DNA from: Cryobacterium levicorallinum
Lineage (GTDB): Bacteria; Actinomycetota; Actinomycetes; Actinomycetales; Microbacteriaceae
Reading direction: 5' to 3'
NCBI RefSeq assembly: GCF_004402405.1
Contig: NZ_SOFE01000022.1
Location: 62,001-126,000 of the forward strand
DNA length: 64,000 bases
Below the pieces are notes generated by a model. It saw only the letters and a program-made list of their open reading frames with translations, was not told the origin of the DNA and did not search any database. Of this stretch, positions 3,088 to 61,099 are shown piece by piece. Numbering within the stretch: position 1 is the stretch's first letter; each line of letters opens with the position of its first letter. A program made the translations under genes and the position numbers.

Positions 3088-3111
3088 CTCGGGGCCGTAC
3101 GCTTCTTCCCC

Positions 3112-3168
3112 GGCCCACCTTGGAGCGCCGGCCCGTGATCTATCAGGGGCCCCTTTCCGGGCCCGGGC
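3112..3168 (-). repeat. GGGCCC palindromic repeat, copy A (long form, reverse orientation)
   Basis: Between the convergent ends of the nitroreductase and DMT genes. Read on the minus strand: GCCCGGGCCCGG, AAAGGGGCCCC, TGATAGATCA, CGGGCC, then CCAAGGTGGGCC. This matches copies C, E and G, with a few mismatches in the central palindrome. Confidence 0.8.
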
Positions 3169-3197: not shown

Positions 3198-4196
3198 TCA
3201 GGTGCGGGCGTGGCCGGGCCGGTGCCAGCGCACCGCGGCGATGACCACGGCGACGAGGGCGAGCGCGGTTCCGGCCAGGGTCGTTACGCCGACCGGATGC
3301 CCCTGAGTGGGCGCGAGCAGATCCAGCGCAAGGGCGCAGAGCAGCTGGCCGGCGACGATGCACAGGCCGAGCATGAGCACGCCGGTGGTACGCACGACGA
3401 GCGCGGCGCCGGCGATGAAGATGCAGCCGATGAGCCCGCCGGTATAGAGCCACGGGTTGCCCGGCAGATCGAGGGCGAAACCGACCAGCACACCGTGCAC
3501 GAGCGCCGCGAGTACGAGCGCGACGGATCCGGTGAGAAAGTTCAGAAAAGTTGCCGTGAGCGCACTTTGCGCGGTGACCCGCACCTGACCGTTCACGGCC
3601 TGCTGCCAGCCCTGGCCGATACCCGCCACGAGGGGTAGCACGAGCAGCCAGAGCGCGTCGCTGCCGCCCAATTCGCCGCTCACCGTCCAGGCTACGGCGA
3701 CCAAGGCGAGCACCGCGCCAACTATTTTGGACGCGTGCAGCGGTCGGCGCCCACCCGGACCGATGCCAAACCGGTCTATGAGCACACCGCTCACGGTCTG
3801 ACCGGCCACAACGGCGACAGTGAACAGGGCGATGCCGAGTGGCGCGGCGACAAGGCCCTGCGACAGTACGAACAGCGCGCCGGCCAGGCCGCCGAACAGG
3901 TGCCACCAGGACAGGGTTTTCGCTCGCACCGCGCGAGTGACGAGTTGCAGGCCGCGGCGCCCGCTTCGGAACACGACGAGGCCAAGGCTGAGAATGACCA
4001 GCCCGGAGCCGAAGGAGATGACGGCGGCAGTGAATCCGTCGCCGATTTGATGCCCGAGTTCGCCATTCACGCGCGATTGCACGGCATACATGGCCCCGAT
4101 CAGCACCGAGAACAGAAGCGCCAGCCAAATCGGCACAGAGGATGCCGCTGGCGCGGCCGAAGCATCCGTTCGGGTCCGTGCGCTGTCCTCTGTCAC
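3198..4196 (-). CDS. DMT-superfamily transporter, DUF606/YdcZ type (two-repeat form)
   Basis: 332 residues with about ten hydrophobic spans in two similar halves (PIWLALLFSVLIGAMYAVQS about 21-40; DALWLLVLPLVAGIGQGWQQ about 179-198), each starting with the YdcZ pattern followed by a V-N-G motif (RVNGELG, AVNGQVR). Small YdcZ proteins have a single five-span repeat; this is the fused double form. Substrate unknown. It is flanked on both sides by GGGCCC repeats A and B in the same orientation. Confidence 0.8.
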   Translation of the reverse strand: MTEDSARTRTDASAAPAASSVPIWLALLFSVLIGAMYAVQSRVNGELGHQIGDGFTAAVISFGSGLVILSLGLVVFRSGRRGLQLVTRAVRAKTLSWWHLFGGLAGALFVLSQGLVAAPLGIALFTVAVVAGQTVSGVLIDRFGIGPGGRRPLHASKIVGAVLALVAVAWTVSGELGGSDALWLLVLPLVAGIGQGWQQAVNGQVRVTAQSALTATFLNFLTGSVALVLAALVHGVLVGFALDLPGNPWLYTGGLIGCIFIAGAALVVRTTGVLMLGLCIVAGQLLCALALDLLAPTQGHPVGVTTLAGTALALVAVVIAAVRWHRPGHART

Positions 4197-4262: not shown

Positions 4263-4293
4263 CCCGGGGCCCACCTTAGGTCGCCGGGCCCGG
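4263..4293 (-). repeat. GGGCCC palindromic repeat, copy B (short form, reverse orientation)
   Basis: Minus-strand reading CCGGGCCCGG, CGA, CCTAAGGTGGGCCCC. It has the two outer blocks of the long form but lacks the central GATAGATC palindrome. It lies downstream of the ABC-F gene and upstream of the DMT gene. Confidence 0.75.
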
Positions 4294-4326: not shown

Positions 4327-5922
<1,596 letters not shown>

Positions 5923-7308: not shown

Positions 7309-7314
7309 TATAAT
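7309..7314 (+). promoter_or_regulatory. Consensus -10 box of the ugpC-type ATPase gene
   Basis: TATAAT lies 55 nt before the start codon in an otherwise GC-rich spacer. No good -35 is seen at 16-18 nt upstream, so the site may rely on an activator. It is the only perfect -10 hexamer noticed in this divergent gap (7152-7368). Confidence 0.5.
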
Positions 7315-7368
7315 TCCTATTCACAACGGATCGTCCGGCACGTTCCTGCCGGTGAAGGAGTAATAATC

Positions 7369-8466
<1,098 letters not shown>

Positions 8467-8539: not shown

Positions 8540-9850
8540 ATGAGCGGTTCCCTCAATATCACCGCGGCCACGGCCGACCCGGCGCTGCTCGACCTGCCGT
8601 GGCATCTGCCCCTGGACGCCTGGCCGAACGAGAACATCGCCTCGCTGCCCAAGGGCATTTCCCGGCACCTGGTGCGGTTCGCTCACCTGAGCGGGCGGGT
8701 GGTCGCCATCAAGGAGACCACGAGCGAGATGGCCAAGCGCGAGTACGACATGCTGCGCACCCTGGCCAACCTCGAGATTCCCTGTGTCGAGCCGGTCGCC
8801 GTCATCACCAATAGAACGGATGCCGACCTCGACCCCCTGAATTCGGTTCTGGTCACCCGGCACCTCAAGTTTTCACTCCCCTATCGCGCCCTGTATTCGC
8901 ACGCCCTGCGCCCGGATACTGCCACCCGGCTGGTCGACGCCCTCGCCGTTCTGCTGGTGCGGCTGCACATGATCGGATTCTTCTGGGGCGACGTGTCGCT
9001 ATCGAACACCCTGTTTCGGCGCGATGCCGGCGCCTTCGCGGCCTATCTCGTCGACGCCGAGACCGGACAGTTGTATTCCGGTGGGCTGTCGAACGGCCAG
9101 CGCGAGAACGATTTGGAAATCGCCCGGGTGAACATTGCCGGCGAATTGATGGACCTCGAAGCCGGCGGCCGCGTCGCCGACGAACTCGACCCGATCCGGG
9201 TCAGCAACGGCATCGTTGCGGCCTACCGGCTGCTCTGGAAGGAGCTCACCGGCTCCGAGTCGTTCTCCAGTTCCGAACGGTGGCGCATCACCGAACGCGT
9301 CGAGCGCCTCAATAACCTCGGCTTCGACATCGAGGAACTAGCGATCAAGACCGATGGGACCGGTTCGCGCGTGCGGATTCAGCCCAAGGTTGTCGACGCC
9401 GGCCACCATCAGCGTCGCCTGCTGCGCCTGACCGGCCTCGATGCCGAAGAGAACCAGGCTCGTCGGCTGCTCAACGACCTCGACTCCTACCGCGCTGCGT
9501 ATGGTTCGCCGGCCGCCGACGAGGAAATGGTCGCGCACGAGTGGCTCGTGCGCGTGTTCGAGCCGGTGGTGCGGGCGATACCCGTGGAGATGCAGGGCAA
9601 GCTCGAGCGGGCGCAGGTGTTCCACCAGCTGCTCGATCACCGCTGGTACATGGCGCAGAACCAGTCGCGGGACATTCCGCTGGCCGAGGCCGTGACCTCG
9701 TATGTGCAGGATGTGCTGCGGCACCGCCGCGACGAGGCAACCGTGCTGGACCCGCTGACTGGCGCAATCACGCTGCCGATCCGCGTGCAGCTCGGCGACG
9801 ATACCTCGGTCGACCCCGATGACGCCGACGACTGGACCCTCAAGGTCTAG
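8540..9850 (+). CDS. DUF4032 protein with kinase-like catalytic motifs
   Basis: 436 residues from ATG 8540. The N-terminal half resembles lipopolysaccharide/small-molecule kinases: VVAIKETTSEMAKREY (nucleotide-loop Lys and helix Glu), FFWGDVSLSNTLF (like the HGDxxxxN catalytic loop, with W in place of H) and AYLVDAETGQL (like the metal-binding DxG/DxE). The C-terminal part is the DUF4032 domain. The protein is soluble. Family function is unknown; the kinase idea is inference from motifs. It follows the ugpC-type gene. Confidence 0.8.
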   Translation: MSGSLNITAATADPALLDLPWHLPLDAWPNENIASLPKGISRHLVRFAHLSGRVVAIKETTSEMAKREYDMLRTLANLEIPCVEPVAVITNRTDADLDPLNSVLVTRHLKFSLPYRALYSHALRPDTATRLVDALAVLLVRLHMIGFFWGDVSLSNTLFRRDAGAFAAYLVDAETGQLYSGGLSNGQRENDLEIARVNIAGELMDLEAGGRVADELDPIRVSNGIVAAYRLLWKELTGSESFSSSERWRITERVERLNNLGFDIEELAIKTDGTGSRVRIQPKVVDAGHHQRRLLRLTGLDAEENQARRLLNDLDSYRAAYGSPAADEEMVAHEWLVRVFEPVVRAIPVEMQGKLERAQVFHQLLDHRWYMAQNQSRDIPLAEAVTSYVQDVLRHRRDEATVLDPLTGAITLPIRVQLGDDTSVDPDDADDWTLKV

Positions 9851-9870
9851 CTCCCTCCTCTTCTTCGACC

Positions 9871-9931
9871 GGGCCCGGGCCCGGAAACGGGGCCCATGAT
9901 AGATCATGGGCCCCATTCCGTAAGGTGGGCC
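9871..9931 (+). repeat. GGGCCC palindromic repeat, copy C (best long copy)
   Basis: Order: GGGCCCGGGCCCGG, AAAC, GGGGCCCATGAT, AG, ATCATGGGCCCC, ATT, CCGTAAGGTGGGCC. The central palindrome has perfect 12-bp arms around AG. It lies between the convergent ends of the DUF4032 and AbiEi-like genes. Confidence 0.9.
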
Positions 9932-9998
9932 TGGAGCACCAGAACACCACTCTGACGCCAAGGTCGGATCGTGAGGCGGCGGGCATCCGCTTGACTGA

Positions 9999-10985
9999 TT
10001 AGGCTCGGGGAACGTCGTGCTCGGTCAGGAATTCGTAAAACAGGCGGGGCGAGTAGGCCGTGTCCCAGTCCCACCGATCGAAGCTGCTGACACCGGGTCT
10101 CAGCAGGTTCTCGCGATCCTTTTCAACGGTGACAACTTCTGAGGGATGACGGTCCCCCAGAATGGCACCCCGGGTGTAATTAATTTCGCCGTCGAATTCG
10201 CCGATCTTGCGCACACTCTGCCAGAAGAAGTCGACCCAGTACTCGCGCCCCTTCACCACAAAACGCACCTGAAGGTCGGGAATCTCGAAGCCCAACTCGG
10301 CCATGCGAACGCGACTGAGGGACTCGCCCGGGTTAGCTGAGAGCGGATTCGTGAATTCAATTGCGCGGCGCGCCTGAGCGCCTCCGTTCCGCGGATGCAC
10401 ACTGGTGAGTTCGGCATACAGCGCGTCTTTGGTGAGGAGCGGGGGGCCAAGGGTTCCATGCCGGCGTTCCGCCTCCGCGCGCTCCTGCTCCACTCGTAGG
10501 GCGTGGTCCATCATCGTGACGCCGACGAGAAAAGTCGAATTGGCTGCCACGTCGATGAGGGTGCGGGGAAGGCTGGTGGCGGCGCATCCGTTCACCGTGA
10601 CTGTTTCGGGCTCGACCACGCTGCGATGACTCGTGGTGAATCGGGCACTGCTCCCGCCAGCGGTGTCATTGTTGATCGCGTGCACGACCTGCGGCCACGG
10701 GCCGATGATGGGCAGGCCATGCAGCACCGCCGCCGAATGATGCGAGAGTAGCAGCGGCTGCTCGGCCGCGAGGACGGTGGCACGTACAAAGAGTCGATAT
10801 CGGTCCTCGCTGTGGCCGGAGCGCCAGGCCGCCCCCAGGGCGTAAATTCCACGACGGATGCGCACCAGCTGCCCATTCGCAAGGAGTGCGCGCACGGCAT
10901 GGGTGGTGAGTCCCGACGCGAGCAGGGATTCGGCAAGAATGAGTCCCTCGTTGCGGGCATTTGGTAGATCCAGGCTGTCAAGCAT
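9999..10985 (-). CDS. AbiEi-like antitoxin domain fused to DUF559/Vsr-like nuclease-fold domain
   Basis: 328 residues. The N-terminus (about 15-60) has a winged-helix start like AbiEi family proteins (LTTHAVRALLANGQLVRIRR, then GIYALG). The C-terminal third carries a PD-(D/E)xK-like pattern, YWVDFFW followed by KIGEFDGEINY, resembling DUF559/Vsr-type domains. No AbiEii toxin gene is adjacent. Such stand-alone proteins are common in actinobacteria and of unknown role. The gene is bracketed by inverted copies of the GGGCCC repeat (C and D), suggesting an inserted cassette. Confidence 0.75.
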   Translation of the reverse strand: MLDSLDLPNARNEGLILAESLLASGLTTHAVRALLANGQLVRIRRGIYALGAAWRSGHSEDRYRLFVRATVLAAEQPLLLSHHSAAVLHGLPIIGPWPQVVHAINNDTAGGSSARFTTSHRSVVEPETVTVNGCAATSLPRTLIDVAANSTFLVGVTMMDHALRVEQERAEAERRHGTLGPPLLTKDALYAELTSVHPRNGGAQARRAIEFTNPLSANPGESLSRVRMAELGFEIPDLQVRFVVKGREYWVDFFWQSVRKIGEFDGEINYTRGAILGDRHPSEVVTVEKDRENLLRPGVSSFDRWDWDTAYSPRLFYEFLTEHDVPRA

Positions 10986-11121
10986 GGCTACTTTTTACCG
11001 GGTACGGGTCTCGAGCGTCGAAAAGTTGGCGGACTTGTGGGAACTGGATGGCGGCATCCGCTGCGGAGGAGAGCCGCGGGCCGCCGCGGAGCGCACGCCG
11101 ACCTCGCCCCGCTTGCCCGGC

Positions 11122-11154
11122 CGGGCCCACCTTACGGAACCGGGCCCGGGCCCC
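11122..11154 (-). repeat. GGGCCC palindromic repeat, copy D (short form, reverse orientation)
   Basis: Plus-strand CGGGCCCACCTTACGG, AAC, CGGGCCCGGGCCCC. Its 14-nt block GGCCCACCTTACGG (11124-11137) is the exact reverse complement of 9918-9931 in copy C, on the other side of the AbiEi-like gene. It lacks the central palindrome. It lies downstream of rlmB. Confidence 0.85.
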
Positions 11155-11202
11155 GTCGCAAAAGGACACGGCGGCAGGGGCGCGCGGGCTGCCGCGCAGG
11201 GG

Positions 11203-12339
11203 CTACTGCTTCGCGGCCTGCTTGGCCTTCTTGATCTCGGCGCGCAGGCGGGAGACCTCGTACAGGGTGACGCCGGCGGCGATTCCGGCGTTGAGCGACT
11301 CGGTCGAGGCGCTGATCGGAATCGAGACGATCGCGTCGCAGGTCTCGGTGACGAGGCGGGACAAGCCCTTACCCTCGCTGCCGACGACGATCACGATCGG
11401 GCGCTCGGCGAAACCGGTGCCGAGGTCGGGCAGCGACACATCGCCATCGCCGGCCAGGCCGAGCACGAACACGCCCTGCGCCTTGAGGGCCTTGAGCGTC
11501 TGGGTCAGGTTGCTCGCCATCGCGACGGGCGTTCGGGCGGCGGCGCCGGCGCTGGTCTTCCAGGCTGAGGCGGTGACGCCGACCGAGCGACGCTGCGGAA
11601 CGATGATGCCGTGGCCGCCGAACGCAGCGGTCGAACGGATGATCGCACCCAGGTTGCGCGGGTCGGTGATGCCGTCGAGGGCCACGAACAACGGCTTATG
11701 GCCGCGGCTGATGGTCAGTTCGAGCAACTCCATCGGGTGCGCGTACTCGTAGGCCGGAACCTTGAGCGCGAGGCCCTGGTGCACGGCGTCGCGACCGGCG
11801 AGACGGTCAAGCTCGGGGCGCATGACCTCGAGAATGGGGATGTTGCGGCTCGTCGCCATAAGCAGCACCTCTTTAACGCGCTCATCCATTTCGATGCGCG
11901 CCGCGATGTACAGAGTCAGCGCCGGAATCTTCGCGCGCAGCGCCTCCAGCACCGAGTTACGGCCGGTGACAATCTCGTGCTCGTCGATCTGCTGGGCGCG
12001 ACGGGTCGAAGAGCCACCGCCGCCGGTGTTGCCGGTGCCGCGCTGCGGGCCGCCCTGCGATGCGCCGCGGGCACCGCCGCGAGCAGCGGGGCCGCCGCGC
12101 GAGCCGCCGCGGTTGGCGGAAGCATCCGCTGCGGGGCGGGAGTTGAAGCCGCCGGCCGCGGTGAAGCGCTCGGCAGCAGCCTTGCGCTTGCCCGCGGGGT
12201 GGTACGGACGGTCTTCGGCCTTAGGCGTGGGCTTCTTGCCCTCGAGCGCCTGACGGCCCTGGCCGCCGGAGCCGACTTGGGCTCCACGGCTGCCCTTGCG
12301 CACCGCTCCGGTACGCGATTTGCGGTCTAAGTTCTTCAT
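11203..12339 (-). CDS. rlmB: 23S rRNA (guanosine-2'-O)-methyltransferase RlmB, TrmH/SPOUT family
   Basis: 378 residues. SPOUT knot motifs at the C-terminus: ALDGITDPRNLGAIIR, VVGSEGKGLSRLV and SIPISASTESLNAGIAAGV. It methylates G2251 (E. coli numbering) in the 23S P-loop using SAM. The first about 130 residues are a disordered Arg/Gly- and Lys-rich extension (GGSRGGPAARGGARG), which makes it longer than the usual about 250 residues and likely aids RNA binding. Its ATG overlaps the cysS stop (TGATG). Same order as Mycobacterium Rv3579c-Rv3583c. Confidence 0.92.
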   Translation of the reverse strand: MKNLDRKSRTGAVRKGSRGAQVGSGGQGRQALEGKKPTPKAEDRPYHPAGKRKAAAERFTAAGGFNSRPAADASANRGGSRGGPAARGGARGASQGGPQRGTGNTGGGGSSTRRAQQIDEHEIVTGRNSVLEALRAKIPALTLYIAARIEMDERVKEVLLMATSRNIPILEVMRPELDRLAGRDAVHQGLALKVPAYEYAHPMELLELTISRGHKPLFVALDGITDPRNLGAIIRSTAAFGGHGIIVPQRRSVGVTASAWKTSAGAAARTPVAMASNLTQTLKALKAQGVFVLGLAGDGDVSLPDLGTGFAERPIVIVVGSEGKGLSRLVTETCDAIVSIPISASTESLNAGIAAGVTLYEVSRLRAEIKKAKQAAKQ

Positions 12340-46500: not shown

Positions 46501-46565
46501 CGGGCCTGGGCCCGGTCGCTGGGCCCATAATCTATCGTGGGCCCAGTTTCCCGGCCCGGGCCCGG
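46501..46565 (+). repeat. GGGCCC palindromic repeat, copy E (long form)
   Basis: CGGGCCTGGGCCCGG, TCG, CTGGGCCCAT, AATCTATC, GTGGGCCCAG, TTT, CCCGGCCCGGGCCCGG. The central palindrome is kept with compensating changes (CTGGGCCCA with TGGGCCCAG), so pairing is conserved although sequence differs from copy C. Confidence 0.85.
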
Positions 46566-46607: not shown

Positions 46608-47366
46608 CTAGGGATTGCGCGGCCAGAGCGGGGAGTCGAGGGTGCTGTCGAGGTCGGCGAGCAGGGCCTGCACCTGGGGCTCGACGTGCTCGGCGATCGC
46701 GGCGAGCAGGCGAGACTGCTGTTGCCGGAGTTGGGCACAGACCCGGCGGCCGACCTGGGTGGCGAACTCGTCGGCGAGGCCGATTTCTACCCGGAGGGCG
46801 GCCTTTTCTTCGGGGGTGAGCGGCGGGAGGCGCTCCTTTGCTGTTTCGTCTGGGTCGTGGTCGGCCTGGGGGTTCCGGCCGGGACCTTGACCGGGTTCGG
46901 ACTCGAAATCACCGCCCGGGGCGGCAGGCTTGGGGGCCGCAGGCGGTGAGTCGGGGGGTTCCAGGCCGGCGAGCTCGCTGAAGGTGAAGAGGTAGGGCGC
47001 ATCCGCTGCCGGTTGCGGGTCAAGGTCGAGGCCGCGAAATTCCGGCTCGAGTCCTTCGGCCGGGCGATACGCCTGCGCGGATTGGCGGCGCTCGCTCAGG
47101 TTGAGTTCGTGCGCGAGCAGCGGGAGGTTGCGCTCGGTGTATTCATCGACCGATGCGTCGATGACGATCTTCATGCGCATGGAGAGGGCGTGCTGCACGA
47201 CGTGGGGCACGTCGACGGCAAGTCCGGCCGACGCGATGATCGGCGAGCCGAAGCACTGACGGCAAAGCCGTGCGCGGCCGCGGTGCGTTGCGGGCCGCCA
47301 CCGGGTGATCCAACGCAGCCAGTTCTCAACCTCATGGTTGACGCGCGATTCGATGGACCCTTCCAT
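46608..47366 (-). CDS. Conserved-type hypothetical protein with a CxxC knuckle and coiled C-terminus
   Basis: 252 residues from ATG 47366. The N-terminal third (about 1-95) is folded, with LCRQCFGSPI and IDASVDEYTERNLPLLAHEL. The middle (about 100-175) is Pro/Asp-rich and disordered. The C-terminus is helical (LRQQQSRLLAAIAEHVEPQV, then QALLADLDS). No family name is recognised. It sits upstream of the str operon between repeats E and F. Confidence 0.65.
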   Translation of the reverse strand: MEGSIESRVNHEVENWLRWITRWRPATHRGRARLCRQCFGSPIIASAGLAVDVPHVVQHALSMRMKIVIDASVDEYTERNLPLLAHELNLSERRQSAQAYRPAEGLEPEFRGLDLDPQPAADAPYLFTFSELAGLEPPDSPPAAPKPAAPGGDFESEPGQGPGRNPQADHDPDETAKERLPPLTPEEKAALRVEIGLADEFATQVGRRVCAQLRQQQSRLLAAIAEHVEPQVQALLADLDSTLDSPLWPRNP

Positions 47367-59376: not shown

Positions 59377-60092
59377 GGGATCCTTCTCGCAAAGCAATGG
59401 CGTCGGGTACTGATTGCCGCGAAAGACACGGCCGCGCTGGTTGTTCGGGGCAAGACGACCGGTCATCGAGGGTGCGGTGACCGAGGCTGGCAGGCTTGGC
59501 GCTACGAGGGTAAGTCGTGTTCGCCGAGGTCTACGTAAGCCGTAACGCTAACGACGCGACTGCCGGCTCGGTAGTCCCGCGATCTGGGGGTCTGCACCCG
59601 GTATGTCACTGTTTTCCCGATCTCTCGCTGAGCGCCGCAGCGTTCAGTGGACTCTCGCTGAGCGCCGAGACTCTTGCCCTGCCTCCCCGCAGTGTCCGTG
59701 GGGCCTCGTCCTGCTCCATGCCCCTTGCCGCGTTTCACACCCTGCATTTTGTCCCGGGCCCGAACAGCGGGCCCACGATAGATCATGGGCCCGCTTTCGC
59801 AATATGGGCCCGGCATGCCCGCACACGCTGTTTGTGGATCGGGACGCCATTCCAATCGCCCGAATCCGCCCTGCTTAAAATGGTGACAGAGTTTCGATAG
59901 TTATTTTTATTTGTCTTTCGCGTCACCGCAACGCCTCCGAGGGCACGAACCTTTCAATTGAACGTGATTCAGGGCCTTCCAGCGCGGGGGAAGCTCCGCC
60001 AATTCGCTGTAGCACCGAAATTCGTGTAGAAATTTACCTGAGTTTCTCTCGCTTTTGTGTTCGGTTTGGGGTAGAATCATGGGGAGGAGGCA
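59377..60092. other. Gene-free region between pilT and the HNH pseudogene
   Basis: About 700 nt. It holds repeat G (59755-59812) and, near its right end, a TAGAAT -10-like box (60072-60077) with SD GGGAGGAGG before the pseudogene ATG. Several short ORFs exist but none is recognisable. The pilT promoter should also lie here but was not identified. Confidence 0.6.
59755..59812 (+). repeat. GGGCCC palindromic repeat, copy G (long form)
   Basis: CGGGCCCGAACA, GCGGGCCCAC, GATAGATC, ATGGGCCCGC, TTTCGCAATATGGGCCCGG. The central palindrome GCGGGCCCA.../...TGGGCCCGC is kept; the right block is diverged (CGCAATATGGGCCC against CCGTAAGGTGGGCC). Confidence 0.85.
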
Positions 60093-61099
60093 ATGGCGCC
60101 CATGTTCATGGAAAACCCGAGCGACGTCAGTGTGAACCCCACTATTGTGGCGGTGGAGCAGGCGCGGGAGGCGTTGTTGGCGGCGTTGGGTGGGGTGTCG
60201 TTCGGGCTGCTCGGTGATGACGAGTCCTTGAGCATGTTGCTTGCGTTGGAGGGTGTGGGTCGGGTTGTTGATGGGGCCCGGGTGCTGTCGACGACGGATG
60301 TGCTGCGTCGTTCCGAGTACTTTGATGAGTCCGTGGCGAAGACGGCAGCGGCGATGACCGACGGGCAGGCCGACAGCCAGCACGGCCGGCACGCAGGCCG
60401 CGCCGAGCAGGCTGGAGCAAGGGCGGCCAGGTGCTCAGTCCTTGCCCGCAGGAACCCGGCGACATCCGCTCGATTGGTGAGAAGCAGGCCGGCATCCTCC
60501 GCGCGGTGTTCGAAGCGGCCGCTCGACAGCCGGGAACCCCGACGATGGGCGGCGCGGCACCAACGGTGCTGGTGCACATCCACATCGACGACCTCCTCGC
60601 CGGGCGCGGCGCCGGCTGGATCGACGGCATCAACGGCCCCCTCAGCGTCAAACAAGTCGAAGAACTCGTCTGCGCCGGCGGCTATCAGCCCGTGTTGTTC
60701 GGCCACCAGGGTCAGGTTGTGCACCTCGGCACCACCAACCGATTCTTCACCAACAGCCAACGCCGAGCATTAGCGGCCCGTGATGGTGGCTGTGTCATCC
60801 CCGGCTGCACCGTGCCACCCCACCTCACGCAGGTTCACCACGTTATTCCCTGGAATAAGGGCGGTCTGACAAATATCGACAACGCCGTTCTCATCTGCAA
60901 CGCCGTTCTCATCTGCAACGCCGTTCTCATCTGCAACGCCGCGCATGCCAGCATCGAAACATCCGGATAAAACATCGACATGCGACACGGACGCCCCTGG
61001 GTCCGCGGACCCCTCATCTTCGACCCCACCCAAACCTGGCGCCCCGCCGGCCAAAACCGCGCCGCCACCCCAGCCGAGAAACCCCACTGGGAAAAGTGA
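60093..61099 (+). pseudogene. DUF222/13E12-type HNH endonuclease pseudogene
   Basis: The first about 100 codons (frame of 60093, MAPMFMENPSDVSVNPTIVA) read as a DUF222 N-terminus. After about 60390 similarity moves to the frame of 60431 (DIRSIGEKQAGILRAVFEAA, HLGTTNRFFTNSQRRALAAR, GGCVIPGC, HHVIPWNKGGLTNIDNAVLI), showing a frameshift plus loss of most of the central DUF222 region. The HNH motif is disrupted by three copies of an 18-bp unit (60881-60934). A TAA at 60968 replaces the usual Trp codon; beyond it the frame continues (NIDMRHGRPWVRGPLIFDPT) to TGA 61097. Confidence 0.85.

Follow-up and report, generated by a model that had tools for sequence, protein, structure and literature searches.

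Why does a single AbiEi-like gene in Cryobacterium levicorallinum lie between two inverted copies of a short repeat, and is it the cargo of these repeats or their partner? In this study, we addressed this question in a 64,000-nucleotide stretch of the genome (the window). A first-pass annotation had pointed to a 14-base block, CCGTAAGGTGGGCC, at 9918-9931, with its exact complement at 11124-11137, enclosing only this gene. Both observations were confirmed. The block was found exactly at these two places, on the plus and the minus strand, respectively (mean exact matches in 100 shuffles, 0.00), and the AbiEi-like gene was alone between the two copies, designated C and D. The block was not enriched in the window when 3 mismatches were allowed (6 found versus 7.2 expected). 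The 14-base block is the tip of a larger repeat, and the pattern GGGCCC-N7-13-GGGCCC occurred 11 times in the window against 0.15 expected. The features are listed below.

3109-3168 (about), minus strand: degenerate copy in the convergent gap between a nitroreductase gene and the DMT gene
4267-4291, minus strand: partial copy (13-side), 35 nt past the stop of the ABC ATPase gene at 4327-5922
8540-9850, plus strand: DUF4032 gene, the left anchor, with its 3' end towards copy C
9867-9936, plus strand: copy C, a full four-box hairpin of 62-66 bp, CC-GGGCCC GGGCCC GGAAACG GGGCCC ATGATAGATCAT GGGCCC CATTCCG TAAGGT GGGCCT
9918-9931, plus strand: 14-base block in copy C, at the 13-side tip of the hairpin
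9999-10985, minus strand: AbiEi-like gene (328 aa), the sole gene between copies C and D and the candidate repeat partner
11121-11155, minus strand: copy D, a core-less hairpin, GGGCCC GGGCCC GGTTCCGTAAGGT GGGCCC
11124-11137, minus strand: 14-base block in copy D
11203-12339, minus strand: rlmB (SpoU-type methylase), the right anchor, with its 3' end towards copy D
46502-46563, plus strand: full copy ahead of rpsL, 44 nt past the stop of the gene at 46608-47210
59750-59811, plus strand: full copy in the divergent gap separating a T2SSE gene from a DUF222/HNH gene

The consensus layout of the element is GGGCCC GGGCCC N7 GGGCCC N12 GGGCCC N7 TAAGGT GGGCCC. It is self-folding, about 62-66 bp long, and its four boxes are spaced 19/18/19 bases. 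The distances between neighbouring GGGCCC boxes on contigs C29 and C21 (609 kb) peaked at 0, 7, 12, and 13 bases (13, 15, 18, and 23 cases), and the whole genome from which the window was taken (G000) held 44 GGGCCC-N12-GGGCCC sites versus 3 of the reversed pattern. In one survey of copies, 40 of 58 element candidates were scored. In copy D, both outer parts are kept and the inner ~31 nt are gone; the copy at the same place is full in genomes G020 and G035. Local expansion of box and spacer was seen at C21:118271-118389 of G000 (L073), a hairpin with four tandem 19-base outer modules.

Copy C folded at -48.6 kcal/mol (z -5.4). We then examined covariation in alignment A4, which holds 75 copies from eleven genomes (55 of 90 listed references and 20 copies from alignment A1). 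Hairpin positions paired in 90.0% of cells versus 78.3% with shuffled partners. The covariation score was 0.277 versus 0.102 after shuffling, was equalled in 0 of 500 shuffles, and fell to 0.12 or less when partners were slid by one base, with the caveat that kinship among copies can beat shuffles even without structure. Two inner-spacer subtypes, ATGATnnATCAT and AGTTTnnAAACT, were found, and the differences between them are paired changes. In DNA palindromes, one arm can be corrected to match the other, and covariation does not separate RNA from DNA because of such arm-to-arm correction. These results support a palindrome that is under selection or copied, at either level.

To describe where the copies sit, genes on C29 and C21 were taken from our own gene caller. 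The 22 elements on these contigs comprised 1 intragenic copy and 21 between genes, of which 10 occupied convergent, 9 tandem, and 2 divergent gaps; convergent gaps made up 53 of the 347 gaps of at least 30 nt. Orientation was determined with 31 asymmetric copies from four stretches of three genomes, 28 of which could be placed. The 7-side pointed towards the 3' end of a gene in 24 of these 28 (10 to 2 in tandem gaps), 17 of the 24 lay 12-40 nt from the stop codon, and a pyrimidine-rich or T tract stood before the hairpin on the 7-side. The counts for placement and orientation therefore indicate that the repeats are mostly behind the 3' ends of ordinary genes. The annotation had taken the repeats to mark the edges of accessory genes, and this view did not hold for the 21 intergenic copies; in the window, copies adjoin rlmB and an ABC ATPase gene, and one lies in the gap preceding rpsL. 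Hairpins in a preferred orientation behind stop codons may shape transcript ends. Intrinsic terminators were ruled out, as the tract precedes the hairpin instead of following it and no terminator-like site was called at copy C or D. No Rfam family was matched at the hairpins, the only matches in the window being tRNA and msiK RNA.

Within the window, the DMT transporter gene (3198-4136, DMT_YdcZ) had been described as lying between two copies of the same orientation, and this was borne out by the degenerate and partial copies at 3109-3168 and 4267-4291, both on the minus strand. Two further copies had been said to enclose two hypothetical genes; if these are the copies at 46502-46563 and 59750-59811, 12 called genes lie between them. 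The AbiEi gene was the only one among 547 genes with a strict element in both adjacent gaps, which is not significant within one genome (P = 0.14). The DMT gene misses this strict bracketing because its left copy is degenerate. When orthologous gaps were compared between G000 and G020, and likewise between G000 and G035, 4 had elements in both genomes, 1 in the other genome only, and 41 in neither; between G020 and G035, 5 had elements in both and 46 in neither, numbers too small for insertion statistics.

We next examined the DUF4032-rlmB locus across the genus. In 12 named Cryobacterium species, DUF4032 and rlmB (94-99% identity) enclosed the gene (74-85%), and elements stood on either side of it; for some species, above all C. 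glaciale, those on one side were all degenerate. Among 41 genomes of the genus, the gene was at this locus in 11, and GGGCCC elements were on both sides in 11 of 11. The two sets overlap in nine and together represent 14 species. Hairpins or their remnants were on both sides of the gene in all 14, and they were inverted wherever the box spacing gives a direction. In G035 (L175), on the 3' side of AbiEi, a hairpin with about 110 nt of flank was tandemly duplicated, and the outer copy, like copy D, no longer had its inner part. Of the 30 genomes without the gene at the locus, 3 break off there at a contig end and 27 have complete intervals, 25 of which span 35-750 nt; none of the 27 intervals contained an AbiEi homologue or a GGGCCC element. 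In G003 (L143) and G040 (L180), the DUF4032-rlmB gap was filled by an unrelated reading frame (about 1.1 kb) whose product resembles a membrane protein.

The annotation had suggested that repeats capture or excise gene cassettes, leaving strains that lack the gene and keep one fused repeat. Two genomes of the same clade were examined at their empty sites, G029 with 80 nt and G036 with 165 nt. Neither a GGGCCC repeat nor a fused repeat was present, and the G029 site is a simple stem-loop. The locus alignments inspected showed no clean insertion, and by eye there was no sign of a target duplication. The same annotation had named relatives with the gene and without repeats, or repeats equally common around core genes, as observations against its view. 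No gene without repeats was found at DUF4032-rlmB; homologues without GGGCCC repeats were at other loci, many with hairpins of their own. Repeats next to core genes were found, for example beside rlmB and in the rpsL gap. The inverted bracketing of AbiEi is meaningful, because the gene has copies or remnants to its left and right in each of the 14 species that carry it at this locus. Capture or excision as a cassette was not seen.

The relationship between the gene and the number of repeats was then investigated with a covariance model, whose counts are relative measures (strict filters, 131 candidates scored per genome, and a palindrome that can be matched on both strands). The 11 gene-bearing genomes had 86, 70, 84, 106, 96, 70, 114, 71, 62, 105, and 21 matches. 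The 30 genomes without the gene had 0-22, the highest being G040 (22), G029 (20), and G008 (18). A related class of repeat and gene probably explains the matches of G040 and G008. For G029, in which no AbiEi homologue was found by genome search, we assume that the copies are relics after gene loss.

At 52-61% identity, most homologues were found at other loci, with flanking hairpins that share the design and have GGCGCA or GGCAC boxes. Within the genus, L116, L118, and L126-L128 had no clear pair of four-box hairpins, and at L111, L121, and L122 box pairs were present and the strong palindrome was absent. GGCGCA-N10-TGCGCC occurred 34, 21, 20, 19, and 15 times in the five genomes with a gene so flanked and at most 11 times elsewhere. 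The GGCAC pattern occurred 4-38 times in the 15 genomes with a GGCAC-flanked gene and at most 10 times in the other 26. Repeats without a matching labelled gene were also present, in lower numbers, in G030 (10), G038 (8), G002, G014, and G037 (6 each), and G000 (5) for GGCAC, and in G039 (11), G030 (7), and G025 (6) for GGCGCA. With the broken genes of G003 and G018 scored as present, each of the three repeat classes was associated with its own gene class (P = 5.7e-7, 1.5e-4, and 1.1e-6; 2.5e-7 for the GGGCCC class by covariance model), an association that is partly circular because class labels were read from the gene flanks. Among the six off-diagonal pairings, significance was reached once (P = 0.0066), when the GGGCCC gene class was set against GGCAC repeats; a GGCAC-class gene is also present in 7 of the 11 genomes concerned. 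Several of the hairpin pairs flanking GGCAC-class genes were in direct orientation. A single contig of G040 carried two paralogues, one bracketed by GGCGCA hairpins and the other by GGCAC hairpins. More distant paralogues (L196, L197, and L200; 35-37% identity) were adjoined by hairpins of 64-72 bp, and L197 (G013) had a near-identical 70-bp pair on both sides.

Across the family, an AbiEi homologue was found in 100 of 150 genomes, a set that includes 3 from Cryobacterium. Bracketing was tested at 27 loci in other genera against 316 control genes drawn from 20 of the genomes concerned, counting hairpins with arms of at least 25 within 350 nt. Hairpins were on both sides of 8 of 27 homologues versus 0 of 316 controls (Fisher, 5e-10), and on at least one side of 17 of 27 versus 20 of 316; 10 of the 27 homologues had no qualifying hairpin. 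Among 41 isolated control genes, 0 had hairpins on both sides and 4 on any side (both-sides comparison, 3e-4). When both strands were counted, the hairpin family of G103 matched 35 times in the genome of G103, compared with 0-1 times in 11 other genomes, one of them congeneric. The search for viral relatives with two pattern scans of IMG/VR, which reach close relatives only, gave none.

We also compared the repeats with the phylogeny of the proteins. The AbiEi tree was built without seven rows (L181 and L190, duplicates; L189, L191, L192, L193, and L194, broken or in pieces). The five box-class labels needed 9 changes on it versus 24.1 when shuffled, and the GGGCCC class formed one clade. G037, which is outside the main clade, carried the gene and 21 model matches, and its nearest relatives, G016 and G017, had no gene of this class and 0 matches. 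The markers of G037 grouped with those of G016 and G017 at full support, while its AbiEi fell in the GGGCCC-class clade (100*), nested there in the quick tree and without a fixed place in the careful tree. The G037 protein is 76.5% identical to that of the window, like several main-clade ones, while its markers are at 85-88% versus 92-99%. Since the protein is close while the markers are distant, transfer of the gene with its repeats is favoured. These comparisons suggest that the gene and repeats of G037 were acquired by transfer, although joint loss of both in G016 and G017 may be the explanation instead.

Both flanks shared the same inner subtype in the 14 species wherever both keep one; copy D of G000 has lost its inner part, and the right-flank subtype of C. 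glaciale comes from a stricter scan, the looser one having picked an unclear frame. The ATGAT and AGTTT subtypes each needed 2 changes on the AbiEi tree, against 5 and 7, respectively, on the species tree. With a third label for outgroup and no-gene rows, the AbiEi tree needed 3 changes (shuffled 7.2; 0 of 200 as low) and the species tree 9 (shuffled 9.4; 107 of 200). The inner-spacer subtype tracks the AbiEi tree and not the species tree, a correspondence that is explained in part by linkage between flank and gene. Among the dispersed copies of G035, 9 of 10 sampled were ATGAT, the sample being the top of the list of an ATGAT-rich covariance model that favours this subtype; an unselected 180 kb, flanking copies included, held 7 ATGAT, 0 AGTTT, and 1 unclear. 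In its sister G018, AGTTT was found in 3 of 4 and in 5 of 6 copies and in nearly all of the pattern matches listed. The dispersed copies of G035 and G018 are thus mainly of opposite subtypes, each as in its own AbiEi flanks. Those of G020 and G014 were of mixed subtypes.

The protein matched Pfam AbiEi_4 (E 1.9e-6) and PADLOC AbiEi (2.7e-11). Residues 1-213 of the predicted model matched PDB 6y8q, the S. agalactiae AbiEi antitoxin (Foldseek probability 0.97, E 4e-3), and the same residues aligned to the AbiEi structure with Z 8.4 and rmsd 6.7 over 172 residues. Profile and structure together identify an AbiEi-type antitoxin fold, in which a winged helix and an AbiEi antitoxin-like part (about 1-213) are followed by about 115 extra residues. 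The fold search gave a clear match for residues 1-213 only; the C-terminal ~115 residues had no Pfam, NCBIfam, or PDB sequence match, and model confidence there was <50. Of the 19 columns invariant among 47 homologues (down to 35% identity), 13 are past residue 213: E221, R225, P236, Q239, D252, E263, D265, G266, Y270, E288, K289, E292, and R304. The order of motifs in this part, E-x-D-G...K-Y and then E-K-x-x-E, is one that we take to resemble DUF559/Vsr-like nucleases. Considered as a candidate PD-(D/E)XK nuclease, the C-terminal part has invariant acidic and lysine residues in a low-confidence model with no profile match. No AbiEii nucleotidyltransferase toxin was found in a bicistronic operon with the gene; DUF4032 and rlmB adjoin it in 11 genomes, leaving no room for a second gene.

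AbiEi and Rv2827c are reported to bind inverted 23-bp repeats in pairs, four repeats in the case of Rv2827c, and AbiEi antitoxins to autoregulate via inverted repeats (PMC7319586). A hairpin arm, from outer to inner box, measures 25 bp, and each hairpin therefore has two inverted sites of about this 23-bp size. We are highly confident, judging from the sequence comparisons, that the protein and the hairpin form a matched pair, in which the AbiEi-like protein would recognise its own four-box hairpin. By analogy with the biochemistry of AbiEi, the winged-helix part is likely to bind the boxes, with two inverted 25-bp sites predicted per hairpin. The best reading is probably that an AbiEi-type DNA binder and a dispersed hairpin make up a REP/RAYT-like pair, the binder having a conserved extra domain. 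Copies C and D are members of a family of about 40 hairpins scattered through the genome. More tentatively, the conserved residues, turnover, and co-occurrence suggest that the protein itself may spread the hairpins, a step that we put forward with some doubt. Its extra C-terminal domain would act on DNA, probably by cutting, as the conserved residues suggest, and the action of the protein would spread and homogenise hairpins that settle behind gene 3' ends. Each protein would thereby bracket its own gene with its own hairpin and seed further copies behind 3' ends. It is roughly as likely as not that such self-spreading palindromes are widespread in Microbacteriaceae, that AbiEi-type proteins to which a DNA-cutting domain has been added drive them, and that repeat and protein co-diversify even within one genome.

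The protein might instead be a regulator only, with the adjoining hairpins as operators, the dispersed ones as further binding sites (global regulation, transcript ends, or the nucleoid), and spread by ordinary duplication or recombination. This is in keeping with the autoregulation of AbiEi antitoxins through inverted repeats (PMC7319586), as well as with a C-terminal part that has no catalytic family match, the fixed orientation to gene 3' ends (24 of 28), and the tandem duplication of hairpin and flank in G035. We consider it unlikely, however, as the dispersed copies avoid promoter-only gaps (divergent gaps contain 2 of the 21 intergenic copies), the 3' end of the AbiEi gene is itself followed by a second copy, and the extra domain has invariant acidic and lysine residues. 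If the hairpins were generic terminators or stabilisers of mRNA 3' ends, the bracketing of AbiEi would be incidental, the locus being a convergent gap. Strong folding and the position and orientation at 3' ends would fit, but abundance depends on the AbiEi gene class, copies flank the gene left and right in all 14 species and also surround many paralogues elsewhere with other boxes, and the pyrimidine tract before rather than after the hairpin, with no terminator-like site at C or D, makes this very unlikely.

Inverted copies around one gene, and the absence of that gene from the same site in 27 relatives with a complete interval, would also be expected if the repeats were the ends of passenger cassettes, captured or excised by recombination between them. 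This is extremely improbable, as 14 species carry the gene at this one site, the empty sites of G029 and G036 have no fused repeat, and no other gene among 547 is strictly bracketed. Another enzyme might spread the repeats, with the AbiEi gene as a passenger inside a repeat pair. The flanking pair and gene appear to travel together, in agreement with this idea, and spread by the AbiEi-like protein is itself a proposal. However, the pairing is class-specific in three classes and recurs in other genera, which would need a passenger of the same family every time, and a Y1 transposase was found in 0 of 28 genomes, so that this too has very little probability. The Y1 tyrosine transposase profile (PF01797) was searched in genomes that included 10 repeat-rich ones (G037 not among these 10), and a positive control gave matches in 5 of 14 genomes, including E. 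coli. Mobilisation by a RAYT was ruled out on this result. Taken together, these comparisons make the gene look like a partner to the repeats rather than their cargo.

RAYTs and REPs diversify together, and to our knowledge RAYTs are the sole protein family tied to REP-like repeats. RAYT genes have been described as flanked by two inverted REPs (PMC2817692). The present pair is similar in having dispersed extragenic palindromes and a partner gene between two copies, inverted in the GGGCCC class (PMC2817692, PMC3733652). It differs in that the partner is AbiEi-type and not an HUH tyrosine transposase, and the repeat is a 62-66 bp, four-box element of Microbacteriaceae. By inspection, a GTAG (or GTGG) foot was absent from the consensus of 75 copies and from the feet of copies C and D. 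By analogy, then, the AbiEi/hairpin pair would resemble REP/RAYT in its working and is not a member of it. CGTC-tagged REPs are likewise dispersed palindromes without a RAYT of their own, and the description of them in PMC3733652 names no partner gene or candidate protein, whereas one is proposed here; sequence and architecture also differ. With the AbiEi antitoxins of type IV toxin-antitoxin systems (S. agalactiae AbiEi and M. tuberculosis Rv2827c), the protein has the winged helix and AbiEi fold in common. Unlike type IV AbiE, it has no neighbouring toxin gene at this locus, and it differs further in its dispersed repeats and in about 115 additional residues at the C-terminus.

In the open-licence literature, we recognised no report tying AbiEi proteins or Cryobacterium to dispersed palindromes, which is weak evidence of novelty. 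The different hairpins around AbiEi-family genes point to a partnership between a protein and a genomic repeat that has not been described so far. An unrelated family with the REP/RAYT signature in several specificities makes the co-diversification of repeats and proteins directly testable, and a function is offered for AbiEi-like genes without an adjoining toxin. If the self-spreading reading is true, it would describe a REP/RAYT analogue of independent origin, with a role for many toxin-less AbiEi-like genes in Microbacteriaceae.

Two further observations were made in the window. At 60875-60941, three overlapping copies in 18-base steps form a tandem repeat within the DUF222/HNH gene at 60431-60970. 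An msiK RNA motif (Rfam RF01747, 62 bits) was found at 7309-7366, ahead of an ABC transporter ATPase gene at 7369-8466.
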